This document shows positions 23,556 to 29,185 of a stretch of DNA of 64,000 nt, piece after piece. Origin of the DNA: Kibdelosporangium sp. MJ126-NF4 (GTDB lineage: Bacteria > Actinomycetota > Actinomycetes > Mycobacteriales > Pseudonocardiaceae); contig NZ_CDME01000015.1 of assembly GCF_000826545.1 (NCBI RefSeq), forward strand, positions 264,207 to 328,206, read 5' to 3'. The first letter of the stretch is position 1. Each line of letters begins with the position of its first letter. The notes under the pieces are model-generated. The model saw nothing but the letters and a program-made list of their open reading frames with translations, was not told the origin of the DNA and made no database searches. The position numbers and the translations under genes are program-made.

Positions 23556-23585
23556 TTGACGCGAATGTGCGCCATCGTCCATAGT
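23556..23585 (+). promoter_or_regulatory. Promoter-like sequence of the leader ORF/tRNA unit
   Basis: TTGACG (23556-23561) and CATAGT (23580-23585) are spaced by 18 nt, a reasonable sigma-70/HrdB-type match, 40 nt before the leader ORF start. It is the only promoter-like sequence I see between the pentapeptide gene and the first tRNA. Confidence 0.5.
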
Positions 23586-23624
23586 TCTCCCATCAAACGC
23601 CGATTCGAGCACCGGAGGGACACC

Positions 23625-23708
23625 ATGGCCAGCAAGTCGCTACTGCTGCAGCAATCATCCCGGCTCGAACTGAAGCTCGAACTCGAGCTCGGCAGGCTCC
23701 CGTTGTGA
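23625..23708 (+). CDS. 27-residue Leu/Glu-rich leader-like peptide
   Basis: A short ORF with an excellent GGAGG site ending 6 nt before ATG. The peptide begins MASKSLLLQQ and ends with LELKLELELGRLPL. Ten of 27 residues are Leu, 4 Ser, 3 Glu, 2 Lys and 2 Gln. There is no signal peptide or known domain. An intrinsic terminator starts 22 nt after the stop and tRNA genes follow. Codons AAG(2), TCG(1), CTG(3), CAA(1), CTC(5), GAA(2) and GAG(1) are exactly complementary to the seven anticodons of the downstream tRNA array. This suggests a leader peptide whose translation senses charged tRNA supply. A free-standing amphipathic peptide is the alternative. Confidence 0.72.
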   Translation: MASKSLLLQQSSRLELKLELELGRLPL

Positions 23709-23732
23709 CATAACCGGTCACGCAAGGGAGCC
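23695..23732 (+). promoter_or_regulatory. Alternative hairpin competing with the terminator
   Basis: GGCTCCC (23695-23701) pairs with GGGAGCC (23726-23732), and GTGAC (23705-23709) with GTCAC (23717-23721), leaving a 7-nt loop. It spans the last leader codons and stop codon, and its 3' arm uses the first three bases of the terminator stem (23730-23732), reducing the terminator's lower stem from 7 to 4 bp. A ribosome finishing the leader would melt it; a ribosome stalled upstream would leave it free to form. Confidence 0.5.
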
Positions 23733-23768
23733 GCCCCCGTCGGAGAACCGACAAGGGCGGCTTTCTTT
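23730..23768 (+). terminator. Intrinsic terminator / attenuator before the tRNA array
   Basis: The stem is 23730-23743 with 23748-23761 (7 bp, a 2x2 CC/AA internal loop, then 5 bp), the loop is AGAA, and TTTCTTT (23762-23768) follows. The first tRNA nucleotide is at 23785, only 16 nt further on, so the array appears to depend on read-through of this terminator. Confidence 0.8.
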
Positions 23769-23784
23769 ATGTCCTGCCGTGCAT

Positions 23785-23856
23785 GGCCGATTCGGCTAAC
23801 GGTCAGGCCGCCATGCTTTCACCATGGAAGCCCGGGTTCGACTCCCGGATCGGCTG
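23785..23856 (+). tRNA. tRNA-Glu (anticodon UUC)
   Basis: A 72-nt cloverleaf: acceptor GGCCGAT/ATCGGCT (G1-U72 wobble), D stem GGCT/GGCC, anticodon stem CCATG/CATGG with loop CTTTCAC (U33, anticodon TTC), T arm CCGGG-TTCGACT-CCCGG, discriminator G. CCA is not encoded. Its codon GAA occurs twice in the upstream leader ORF. It is first in the array. Confidence 0.88.
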
Positions 23857-23869
23857 CTGTGCGCACGAC

Positions 23870-23941
23870 GGCGCGTTGGTCCAGTGGAATGGACGTCGGT
23901 CTCTCACACCGAAGACACGGGTTCGACTCCCGTACGCGTCA
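23870..23941 (+). tRNA. tRNA-Glu (anticodon CUC)
   Basis: A 72-nt cloverleaf: acceptor GGCGCGT/ACGCGTC (G2-U71 wobble), D stem GTCC/GGAC, anticodon stem TCGGT/ACCGA with loop CTCTCAC (anticodon CTC), T arm ACGGG-TTCGACT-CCCGT. The discriminator is A, where bacterial tRNA-Glu normally has G. CCA is not encoded. Its codon GAG occurs in the leader ORF. Confidence 0.87.
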
Positions 23942-23942
23942 C

Positions 23943-24186
23943 GCGGTCCTAGTGGTTGCGACTGGGAGTTCGTTGGGGGTATTCGGCGGATCCAGGTTTT
24001 CGCTGGGCGTGCCGGACGAAGGGGCCGGTACCTCTGTTGTACCGGCGCCTTTGGCCGGTGCGGTCAGCGGGAAGCTGGGCCGTCGAGACCCCCGACAGAC
24101 TCCCGGTCGTGACCACTAGCCCAACTGGGAGAGGCACCAGGCCGAGATCCTGGCCAGTGGGGGTTCGACTCCCCCGGACCGCACCA
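23943..24186 (+). tRNA. Interrupted tRNA, anticodon GAG (Leu codons), with internal 165-nt insertion
   Basis: The 5' acceptor strand GCGGTCC (23943-23949) plus TA is separated from the rest (24117-24186) by a long hairpin insertion. Joined, the parts form a class I cloverleaf: acceptor GCGGTCC/GGACCGC (perfect), D stem GCC/GGC, anticodon stem CCAGG/CCTGG with loop CCGAGAT (C at 33, anticodon GAG), variable CCAGT, T arm GGGGG-TTCGACT-CCCCC, A73, and an encoded CCA (24184-24186). The short variable arm is unlike any normal tRNA-Leu. The codon CTC occurs five times in the leader. It may be broken, or tolerated because the insert closes on itself. Confidence 0.7.
23950..24118 (+). repeat. Long imperfect hairpin inserted between acceptor and D arms
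   Basis: The arms 23950-23980 and 24088-24118 pair over about 31 positions with one mismatch and several G-U pairs (for example 23957-24111, 23963-24105, 23970-24098, 23974-24094). An apical 8-bp stem GCCGGTAC/GTACCGGC (24024-24031/24039-24046) closes a 7-nt loop. CTAG at both borders suggests a 2-4 bp target duplication, as for a MITE. The number of G-U pairs would also suit selection on RNA structure. No coding content is seen. Confidence 0.7.
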
Positions 24187-24187
24187 A

Positions 24188-24260
24188 GCCCTTGTAGCCC
24201 AACGGAAGAGGCAGCGCGCTCAGAACGCGTCCAGTGCAGGTTCAAATCCTGCCAAGGGTA
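24188..24260 (+). tRNA. Class I tRNA with Leu anticodon CAG
   Basis: A 73-nt cloverleaf: acceptor GCCCTTG/CAAGGGT (G1-U72), D stem GCC/GGC, anticodon stem GCGCG/CGCGT with loop CTCAGAA (U33, anticodon CAG), variable CCAGT, T arm GCAGG-TTCAAAT-CCTGC, A73. The D arm and variable loop match the interrupted tRNA before it, so the two are relatives. Normal bacterial tRNA-Leu is class II with a long variable arm; this one is class I, so its charging identity is open. The codon CTG occurs three times in the leader. Confidence 0.82.
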
Positions 24261-24264
24261 CTAC

Positions 24265-24336
24265 TCCCGGTTGGTGCAATGGGTAGCACAACGGACCTTG
24301 GTTCCGTTGATCCAGGTTCGAGTCCTGGACCGGGAG
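24265..24336 (+). tRNA. tRNA-Gln (anticodon UUG) with C33
   Basis: A 72-nt cloverleaf: acceptor TCCCGGT/ACCGGGA (U1-A72, as usual for Gln), D stem GTGC/GCAC, anticodon stem ACGGA/TCCGT with loop CCTTGGT (anticodon TTG), T arm CCAGG-TTCGAGT-CCTGG, discriminator G. Position 33 is C instead of the near-universal U. The body otherwise looks like bacterial tRNA-Gln. The codon CAA occurs in the leader, and CAG can be read by wobble. Confidence 0.85.
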
Positions 24337-24340
24337 CGAA

Positions 24341-24427
24341 GGAGGATTGGCCGAGCCCGGTAAGGCAGCCGTCTCGAAAACGGTAGTCGGCGGAAACGTC
24401 GCGCAGGTTCGAATCCTGCATCCTCCG
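24341..24427 (+). tRNA. tRNA-Ser (anticodon CGA)
   Basis: An 87-nt class II tRNA: acceptor GGAGGAT/ATCCTCC, anticodon stem GCCGT/ACGGT with loop CTCGAAA (anticodon CGA), long variable arm AGTCGGCGGAAACGTCGC, T arm GCAGG-TTCGAAT-CCTGC, discriminator G. It looks normal. The codon TCG occurs in the leader ORF. It begins 4 nt after the tRNA-Gln. Confidence 0.93.
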
Positions 24428-24428
24428 C

Positions 24429-24501
24429 GGGTCGTTAGCTCAACTGGGAGAGCAGCGGACTCTTACTCCGCGGGTTCGGGGTTCGATCCCCCGGCGACCC
24501 A
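24429..24501 (+). tRNA. tRNA-Lys (anticodon CUU)
   Basis: A 73-nt cloverleaf: acceptor GGGTCGT/GCGACCC, D stem GCTC/GAGC, anticodon stem GCGGA/TCCGC with loop CTCTTAC (anticodon CTT), T arm CGGGG-TTCGATC-CCCCG, A73. It is last in the array; CTTTTT follows at 24502. The codon AAG occurs twice in the leader ORF. Confidence 0.92.
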
Positions 24502-24600
24502 CTTTTTCACATGTTCGGCAGGCCGGTGCTCACTCCGGCCCGCCGCGACACCGCCTCCCCGTTATCCTTGGGCGTACTGGGCGGAAGAGAGGTCGGGGAG

Positions 24601-28651: not shown

Positions 28652-29185
28652 GTGGGGCAACCTGACGACGGGCTGCTGCTCCTGGACGTCGACGGGCCGC
28701 TGAACCCGTACGCCGCCCAAGCCAGCAGGCGGCCACCCGGCTACGAGACGTTCCGGCAGACCACCGGTGGCCGGTGGTTGACCGGAAAGGAAGCGCGCAA
28801 ACGCAAAGGCCTGCGAGTGTGGCTGAACCCCGCGCACGGTCCGATGCTGCGCGAACTGGCCGAGGAGACCGGCCTGACCCTGGTCTGGGCGACGACCTGG
28901 CAGCACGAGGCCAACACCTGCGTCGCCCCCGCGATCGGCCTGCCGGAACTGCCGGTCATCGAGTTCACCCCGTCGACCGGCTGGAAGTGGGCAGCGGTGG
29001 CCGCATACGCACAAGGCCGTCCGATCGCCTGGCTGGACGACCAGTTCGACGAATTCCCCGCCGCGCGAGGGACGTTCGACGAGCAACGTGCGGGCGCGTC
29101 GACTTTTTTGTGTCATGTCGATCCGGCGACCGGGCTGCTGGACGCGCACGTCGACGCCATCAGGCACTGGCACGCAGCGGAGTGA
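28652..29185 (+). CDS. HAD-like protein (Swiss-army-knife RNA-repair HAD family resemblance)
   Basis: A 177-residue protein starting at GTG 28652. HAD motif I is seen as LLLDVDGPLNPY, a motif II Thr in LVWATTWQHEAN, a Lys in GWKWAA and motif IV in AWLDDQFD. The DVDGPLN motif and spacing resemble the HAD domain described in Swiss-army-knife RNA repair proteins, which are thought to dephosphorylate RNA ends; many actinobacterial stand-alone copies have no known role. It is divergent from the paoA-like gene. Its link to the tRNA array 4 kb away is speculative. Confidence 0.65.
   Translation: MGQPDDGLLLLDVDGPLNPYAAQASRRPPGYETFRQTTGGRWLTGKEARKRKGLRVWLNPAHGPMLRELAEETGLTLVWATTWQHEANTCVAPAIGLPELPVIEFTPSTGWKWAAVAAYAQGRPIAWLDDQFDEFPAARGTFDEQRAGASTFLCHVDPATGLLDAHVDAIRHWHAAE

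Follow-up and report, generated by a model that had tools for sequence, protein, structure and literature searches.

How can a cluster of seven closely packed tRNA genes be expressed when an intrinsic transcription terminator stands directly in front of it? This question is raised by a locus in a stretch of 64,000 nucleotides (nt) from Kibdelosporangium sp. MJ126-NF4 (contig NZ_CDME01000015.1, positions 264,207 to 328,206), which is called the window here and whose own numbering is used throughout. From the sequence of this locus, a preliminary description had proposed a transcription attenuation unit in which tRNA itself is the regulated product. A comparison with related genomes strongly supports this proposal by the agreement of the leader codons with the tRNAs of the array, by the recurrence of the unit, and by the presence of the attenuator at 29 of the 30 best matching places. 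On these comparative grounds, the locus is very probably a ribosome-mediated transcription attenuator, by which a tRNA operon would be controlled through the readability of the operon's own codons. The most telling fact is that, throughout the family, the leader is made up of codons of the array's own tRNAs. The features of the locus, all on the forward (+) strand, are the following.

23556 to 23585, +, promoter: -35 element TTGACG (23556-23561), spacer of 18 nt, -10 element CATAGT (23580-23585); from the sequence
23614 to 23618, +, Shine-Dalgarno motif GGAGG of the leader, 6 nt before the ATG; from the sequence
23625 to 23708, +, leader open reading frame MASKSLLLQQSSRLELKLELELGRLPL followed by the stop codon, 27 amino acids; from translation and codon count
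23695 to 23701, +, antiterminator 5' arm GGCTCCC within the last leader codons; from the fold and the pairing in the family
23704 to 23722, +, small hairpin with the leader stop codon, stem 23704-23709 : 23717-23722; from the fold and compensatory changes in relatives
23724 to 23770, +, intrinsic terminator with a T-rich tail; from the fold and the score of the covariance model R1
23726 to 23732, +, GGGAGCC, used in both folds: as the 3' arm of the antiterminator and as the terminator foot; from the fold
23785 to 23857, +, tRNA-Glu(TTC); ARAGORN, Rfam scan
23870 to 23942, +, tRNA-Glu(CTC); ARAGORN, Rfam scan
23943 to 23952, +, tRNA-Leu(GAG), 5' part; from the uninterrupted homologue in loci L025/L028 and L031
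23953 to 24116, +, hairpin repeat inside tRNA-Leu(GAG), resembling a miniature inverted-repeat transposable element (MITE), with CTAG at either side; from the fold and repeat matches
24117 to 24186, +, tRNA-Leu(GAG), 3' part; tRNA match at 24117-24175 scoring 26 bits, which does not reach the gathering score (29)
24188 to 24261, +, tRNA-Leu(CAG); ARAGORN, Rfam scan
24265 to 24337, +, tRNA-Gln(TTG); ARAGORN, Rfam scan
24341 to 24428, +, tRNA-Ser(CGA); ARAGORN, Rfam scan
24429 to 24502, +, tRNA-Lys(CTT); ARAGORN, Rfam scan

The promoter, the small open reading frame with its ribosome binding site, the terminator and the tRNA array are all present in the window sequence as had been claimed. The sigma-70-like promoter pattern occurred once at the locus, compared with 0.1 expected occurrences in shuffled sequences. 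The terminator stem (23724-23767) had a folding energy of -31.9 kcal/mol (z -5.6), and none of 200 shuffled sequences folded as well. The model R1, a covariance model of the leader-terminator RNA that was built from 26 loci, gave the window terminator 66.8 bits, the window itself being one of the 26 training sequences. A simple terminator scan found none at the locus (1.0 expected); an internal loop in the stem is the probable reason. The first tRNA gene begins at 23785, and the coordinates bear out the distance of 16 nt between the final T run and the array. The description of the array as seven tRNA genes with gaps of 1-13 nt has to be modified: six genes are intact according to ARAGORN, the seventh, tRNA-Leu(GAG), is split, and the gaps are 0-12 nt when the interrupted stretch is set aside.

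The leader of the window contains exact partner codons for all seven array anticodons, namely two GAA, one GAG, five CTC, three CTG, one CAA, one TCG and two AAG. When wobble was allowed, the seven tRNAs could read 16 of the 26 codons that follow the start codon, compared with a background of 0.205 in nine genes of the window (p 6e-6). Without the split tRNA-Leu(GAG), 11 of the 26 codons were readable by the six intact tRNAs (background 0.168, p 0.002). The arrangement is beyond chance: it was seen again at more than 100 loci, and the codon match of the window is significant on its own.

The recurrence of the unit was followed by several searches. A pattern scan for arrays in genome contigs returned 27 loci, of which two, in K. 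philippinense (L001) and K. persicum (L025), were homologous to the window locus; the other 25, Sphingomonadales among them, were left aside. With the K. persicum locus as the query, 149 of 390 genomes of the family matched; the query contained the leader, and most matches spanned its tRNA part only. The best 30 places of this search were fetched, and at 29 of them an attenuator precedes the first detected tRNA gene on the same strand by no more than about 0.8 kb. At the thirtieth place (L310, genome G023) it lies about 6 kb upstream of the likely array, and this distance suggests a large insertion between the leader and the tRNA genes. Homologous arrays lacking the small reading frame and the terminator, which would have spoken against attenuation, were therefore not seen among these 30 places.

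The R1 model matched 163 of the 390 family genomes at E <= 0.001, with up to six copies each, and about 140 of these genomes reached 1e-8 (counted from the table). From the listed matches 80 further regions were picked, 77 could be parsed, and 74 of these had a tRNA gene within 450 nt. In total, 127 loci were parsed: a leader was called in 126 by a script that itself demanded a Shine-Dalgarno-like motif, a tRNA gene lay within 450 nt in 122, and both were present in 121. The arrays comprise 1 to 22 tRNA genes, and in 55 of the 121 loci the T tail is separated by less than 40 nt from the first detected tRNA gene. In the 110 nt upstream of the 126 leaders, the best promoter-like score was 9-10 of 12 in 68 loci, compared with about 2.8 loci expected from base-shuffled sequences; the -35 element was TTGACG in 62 loci and TTGACC in 23. 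In one genome (L035/L311, genome G216), about 2 kb that presumably encode a group II intron maturase, as recognized by eye, split the array, and the attenuator still stands in front.

Outside the family, the unit was not recovered. Among 394 genomes of the class, the two R1 matches had both already been found in the family search. Among 397 genomes of the order 36 matched, seven of them outside the family search; these seven scored weakly, none had a tRNA gene downstream on that strand, and five are terminators that follow the same conserved gene each time. With the sensitivity of these searches, the unit is limited to the family of Kibdelosporangium, the Pseudonocardiaceae, which we assume to be identical with the family searched.

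The leaders and the arrays match across the whole collection. For 120 distinct pairs, the fraction of readable leader codons was 0.338, compared with 0.173 when the arrays were shuffled among the leaders (standard deviation 0.0084, z 19.7, none of 1000 shuffles as high), and 91.7% of the array anticodons had a readable codon in their leader, compared with 59.5% after shuffling. All 20 amino acids are commoner in leaders whose array serves them, the differences for Thr and Asn being small. Kinship was controlled by retaining one leader per cluster of 40% identity, which left 24 clusters, the largest of which had held 63 of the 121 leaders. The match persisted, with readable fractions of 0.315 and 0.144 (z 9.4) and anticodon coverages of 0.864 and 0.526 (z 5.8) for the real and the shuffled arrays, respectively. 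Within the leaders, matched codons stay at background (0.10-0.11) in the last six positions and reach 0.43, compared with 0.17, in the preceding three. The stretch that would lie under a finishing ribosome is set aside for structure, as expected if the end of the leader is kept for the antiterminator.

Individual loci are instructive as natural experiments. The window has neither a tRNA-Cys gene nor a Cys codon in its leader; six relatives (L001, L028-L032) have a tRNA-Cys gene and a TGT codon. The array of L311 includes tRNA-Arg(CCG) and its leader has three CGG codons, compared with zero to two in the window and the same six relatives. A lone Cys tRNA gene (L156) follows a leader with eight Cys codons, and eight consecutive CTC/CTG codons precede an array with tRNA-Leu(GAG) and tRNA-Leu(CAG) (L048). 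In four loci with a lone tRNA-Arg(ACG) gene, the leader is short and contains four Arg codons, in three cases CGT CGA CGC CGT; CGT, CGA and CGC are the codon set read by inosine. Four similar short leaders in front of Arg and Cys tRNA genes carry TGT or TGC among the Arg codons.

The leader RNA can adopt two alternative folds. GGCTCCC in the last leader codons can pair with GGGAGCC in the foot of the terminator (-22.7 kcal/mol, z -4.5). The unconstrained fold of the same 83-nt stretch is antiterminated (-39.9 kcal/mol). The full terminator forms when the 5' arm is held free (-37.8 kcal/mol) and also when everything through the stop codon is held free (-31.9 kcal/mol), and masking of the arm would therefore suffice to switch the fold. 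Judged by its position, this arm would be hidden by a ribosome that has reached the stop codon. In the window, the fold also contains an upstream helix, a possible candidate for a pause (1:2) hairpin by which termination would be restored without translation. In the family, the pairing score of the arms was at least 15 in 118 of 126 loci (93.7%), and own arms outscored swapped arms (19.14 compared with 18.56, standard deviation 0.12, none of 200 swaps as good). In alignments cut at the best helix, a procedure that favours pairing, the seven antiterminator pairs were formed in 96.4% of the cells for 92 aligned loci (94.9% after permutation, maximum 95.5%), and the stop-codon hairpin was paired in 86.8% of the cells, with double, compensatory changes in 40 cells and 16 expected. 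Four elements by which an attenuator is recognized are present: a promoter and a leader with a Shine-Dalgarno motif, control codons linked to the product, a terminator and a competing antiterminator. These parts, the alternative pairings, the match of codons and array, the recurrence and the covariation can be seen in the sequences themselves.

Several results weigh against the attenuation reading or restrict it. In the window, the advantage of the antiterminator fold over the terminator fold is no more than 2.1 kcal/mol when both are computed for one stretch, and the antiterminator does not dissolve the terminator stem completely; RNAalifold proposed the terminator only, and the number of stop-hairpin pairs with double changes did not exceed that in shuffled alignments (78 of 500). 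A reshuffling of synonymous codons in the 24 clusters barely mattered (0.315 and 0.303, z 1.1), and the match in these clusters is therefore mainly one of amino acids and not of synonym choice. Contrasts between codons of one amino acid among the 121 leaders gave mixed results in Fisher tests, which count codons as independent in loci that are related. They were significant for Leu CTN/TTR (p 1.7e-6, 41 and 4 leaders), for Arg CGT/CGC/CGA against CGG (p 4e-7, 37 and 7), for Arg CGN/AGR (p 1.8e-4, 53 and 3) and for Gln CAA/CAG (p 0.008, 13 and 8), and not significant for Ser (p 0.70, 22 and 4), Glu (p 0.53, 9 and 16) and Leu CTC/CTG (p 1.0, 4 and 11). On average, 8.3% of the array anticodons of a locus lack a readable leader codon; the leader of L028, for example, has none for tRNA-Gln(TTG) and tRNA-Glu(CTC). 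Among the 12 single-tRNA loci examined, one with a lone Asn tRNA gene (L118) has no Asn codon in its leader, and the four leaders of the Arg-only loci also hold one TGC, within the last four codons and thus in the tail reserved for structure. Of the 127 parsed attenuators, five had no tRNA gene within 450 nt and one had no leader called by the script. Three weak R1 matches of the family were inspected individually; two (G021, G113) had tRNA-Arg genes behind them, and one (G006) had no tRNA genes. Finally, the anticodon loops, which bear on the possible trigger, are mostly unchanged for 9 of 28 isoacceptors.

In the proposed mechanism, RNA polymerase would start from the promoter at 23556-23585 and a ribosome would follow on the 27-codon leader. 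When all codons are promptly read, the ribosome would reach the stop codon and cover GGCTCCC, GGGAGCC would join the terminator, and transcription would end before the tRNA genes. When a cognate tRNA is missing, the ribosome would stall upstream, GGCTCCC and GGGAGCC would pair, the terminator would lose its foot, and without this foot the entire array would be transcribed. In the absence of a ribosome, only about 2 kcal/mol separate the two folds of the window RNA, and the default state could be either. We infer ribosome stalling and read-through as the steps of the switch and destruction of tRNAs as its natural trigger. The products would be extra tRNA copies that mostly keep their charging signals and often have altered anticodon loops.

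The array tRNAs themselves were compared with the housekeeping tRNA sets of two genomes (K. persicum and G163), in which the loops are identical for 31 of 37 isoacceptors. The anticodon loop was changed in 375 of 561 array tRNAs, at position 38 in 225, position 32 in 181, position 37 in 176 and position 33 in 48 cases, and a housekeeping G37 was replaced by A37 in 133 of 228 array tRNAs. In the window, six of the seven loops differ from those of the K. persicum housekeeping tRNAs, that of tRNA-Ser(CGA) is the same, and the loop of tRNA-Glu(CTC) equals that of the second housekeeping genome, G163. Every isoacceptor of the homologous K. persicum array also has a housekeeping gene. The array tRNAs appear largely to keep their charging signals: A73 was found in 82 of 82 Leu, T73 in 28 of 28 Cys and G73 in 49 of 50 Ser tRNAs, and G3:U70 in seven of nine Ala tRNAs, all of which we take to be aminoacylation identity elements; position 73 is mixed in array Arg and Glu tRNAs. 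The loss of tRNAs is favoured as the trigger because in many copies the changes lie in the loop at which anticodon nucleases attack, and the likely role of the unit is plausibly a tRNA-damage response in which destroyed tRNAs are replaced.

Some further tRNA genes are unusual. All 23 array tRNA-Met(CAT) genes have C1 and G72, and the elongator-type housekeeping tRNA-Met genes of the K. persicum set start with G. In three loci (L029, L030, L032), ARAGORN misses the first tRNA gene, which is tRNA-Glu(TTC) in relatives, and a different, longer sequence stands in place of its anticodon arm. At three K. persicum loci (L206, L207, L208), tRNA-Leu(CAA), tRNA-Leu(TAG) and tRNA-Leu(TAA) genes typed as housekeeping are only about 75 nt long and have short variable loops, unlike tRNA-Leu(CAG) and tRNA-Leu(GAG) of this genome.

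The unit also occurs in viral DNA. The terminator pattern was found at nine loci of viral contigs, and two of these, on uncultivated viral contigs of IMG/VR (L222, L223), matched R1 (44.5 and 45.7 bits), with an attenuator, a leader, and 10 and 13 tRNA genes, respectively; the other seven had no tRNA gene. The viral leaders, read by eye, are MTSRRATESRGHGYPCSRRFLGIGKAPG and a near twin. L222 carries a terminase gene, and HNH endonuclease genes lie between the tRNA genes of L223. DNA similarity to the window array did not lead to further copies: matches covered at most 10% of the query, with one or two tRNAs, in 18 plasmid records and in the 20 phage records listed of 96. The single tRNA gene of Streptomyces phage Urza is one for tRNA-Trp, and 18 kb of mycobacteriophage Bonray contain four tRNA genes and no full R1 match, apart from a partial match (18.2 bits) on the opposite strand. 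Around the host loci, one neighbouring protein was taken from each of 20 of 108 loci; 14 of the 20 had Pfam matches, with ordinary chromosomal functions, and neither a recurring partner nor a mobile-element protein was found among them by Pfam. In the window, a protein with a HAD_SAK_2 domain ('Swiss Army Knife RNA repair proteins') is encoded at 28652-29185, 4 kb from the array. PADLOC gave a single partial match, to the methyltransferase part of mad2, for the ten window proteins near the array.

Other explanations make use of the same elements. The preliminary description had named starvation beside anticodon nucleases as a possible cause of a tRNA shortage, and the same attenuator might indeed respond to uncharged tRNA, the extra tRNAs tuning the pool during growth changes. 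A ribosome would stall alike at a codon whose tRNA is uncharged or missing, and leader-peptide attenuators of amino-acid genes have been predicted in Actinobacteria, as described in the passages available of PMC1262725. Nevertheless, we regard starvation as unlikely, because the lack of an amino acid is not made good by further tRNA, and additional uncharged copies would give no help; moreover, the arrays mix many unrelated amino acids, with up to 22 tRNAs, and the 375 changed loops would be left unexplained. Even less probable is a general switch for translation failure, in which the ribosome-free RNA would fold to read-through, antibiotics or the loss of ribosomes would be the trigger, and codon identity would be secondary. 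The preference of the 83-nt stretch for the antiterminated fold (-39.9 and -37.8 kcal/mol) would suit such a switch, but the margin is narrow, and such a switch would not explain why leader codons and array tRNAs correspond.

A selfish or phage-derived anti-defence cassette that resupplied tRNAs cut by the host and was later kept by hosts is conceivable, if doubtful. It concerns the origin of the unit and is compatible with attenuation. The two viral contigs, one with a terminase gene, speak for it, and phage tRNAs with loop changes have been proposed to evade nucleases in the passages available of PMC10264068; however, these two contigs are the only ones of their kind that were found, and the ordinary host neighbourhoods with no recurring partner offer no support. 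That the array is an ordinary constitutive operon, with the leader and the terminator present by chance or as relics, is hardly credible, as it is contradicted by the recurrence, the codon match and the covariation. Attenuation by the readability of the operon's own codons is thus the reading that we prefer.

Known systems share some traits with the unit. The actinobacterial leader-peptide attenuators of trp, ilvB, leuS and trpS, according to the passages available of PMC1262725, likewise have a short leader, control codons and a terminator, and a competing antiterminator is common to classical leader-peptide attenuators and the tRNA array unit. In contrast, the product here is tRNA genes and not biosynthetic enzymes or synthetases, the leader tests many amino acids together, and the codons in it vary from array to array. 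That survey covers amino-acid and synthetase genes, and the phrase 'tRNA gene' is absent from its available text. Dense extra tRNA genes are also characteristic of the array units of mycobacteria and of M. avium plasmids (PMC5966550, PMC12803027), for which a putative anti-defence role is named in the available part of PMC12803027. The main texts of both papers contain no occurrence of attenuat-, leader, terminator or promoter, and in our class and order samples no true R1 unit was found outside the family. The loop-altered phage tRNAs of PMC10264068 are likewise extra tRNAs, with loops proposed to resist anticodon nucleases; in its available passages, regulated expression is not described and 'attenuat' does not occur.

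With the T-box riboswitch, the unit would share that tRNA status acts on termination. T-boxes bind uncharged tRNA directly and have no leader peptide, unlike the unit described here, and Rfam scans of the window gave no T-box match, so that this possibility was rejected.

The element that splits tRNA-Leu(GAG) (23943-24186 including the insert) was also characterized. The 164-nt insert (23953-24116) is a near-perfect hairpin (z -12.7 for the fold of the whole stretch). A self-splicing intron was rejected: Rfam gave no intron match, and the insert is a dispersed repeat, of which whole or partial copies gave 35 matches in G002, 23 in G219 (best identity 95%) and 19 in G220. In G002, the two parts of the hairpin also recur separately, repeatedly about 1.9 kb apart; therefore, it looks like a MITE derived by shortening of a longer element. 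The gene is uninterrupted in K. persicum (L025) and L031. In K. philippinense (L001) the same gene is interrupted by a diverged copy of the hairpin, and the site may therefore be a hot spot of insertion.

In the usual descriptions, tRNA genes are either constitutive or under growth-rate control. Here, more than 100 arrays, whose tRNA sets differ widely, seem to be governed by how their own codons are translated. In the full-text literature searched, a body outside of which lie most subscription papers and all preprints, attenuated tRNA operons were the subject of no title or abstract. If our reading is true, the unit would be, within this literature, the first circuit that switches tRNA genes on by the codon-specific loss of the tRNAs that they encode, and the leader would serve as a natural sensor that gauges the availability of tRNAs at many codons. 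The existence of extra tRNA arrays, the role of which is called unknown in the available part of PMC12803027, would also be explained in a testable way. The chances seem about even that the units together constitute a family-wide response to tRNA damage, in which leaders that call the roll of the tRNAs release replacements that escape the nucleases, and that phages carry the same cassette. The unit would then record, at the level of sequence, which tRNAs have to be replaced in these bacteria and in some phages.

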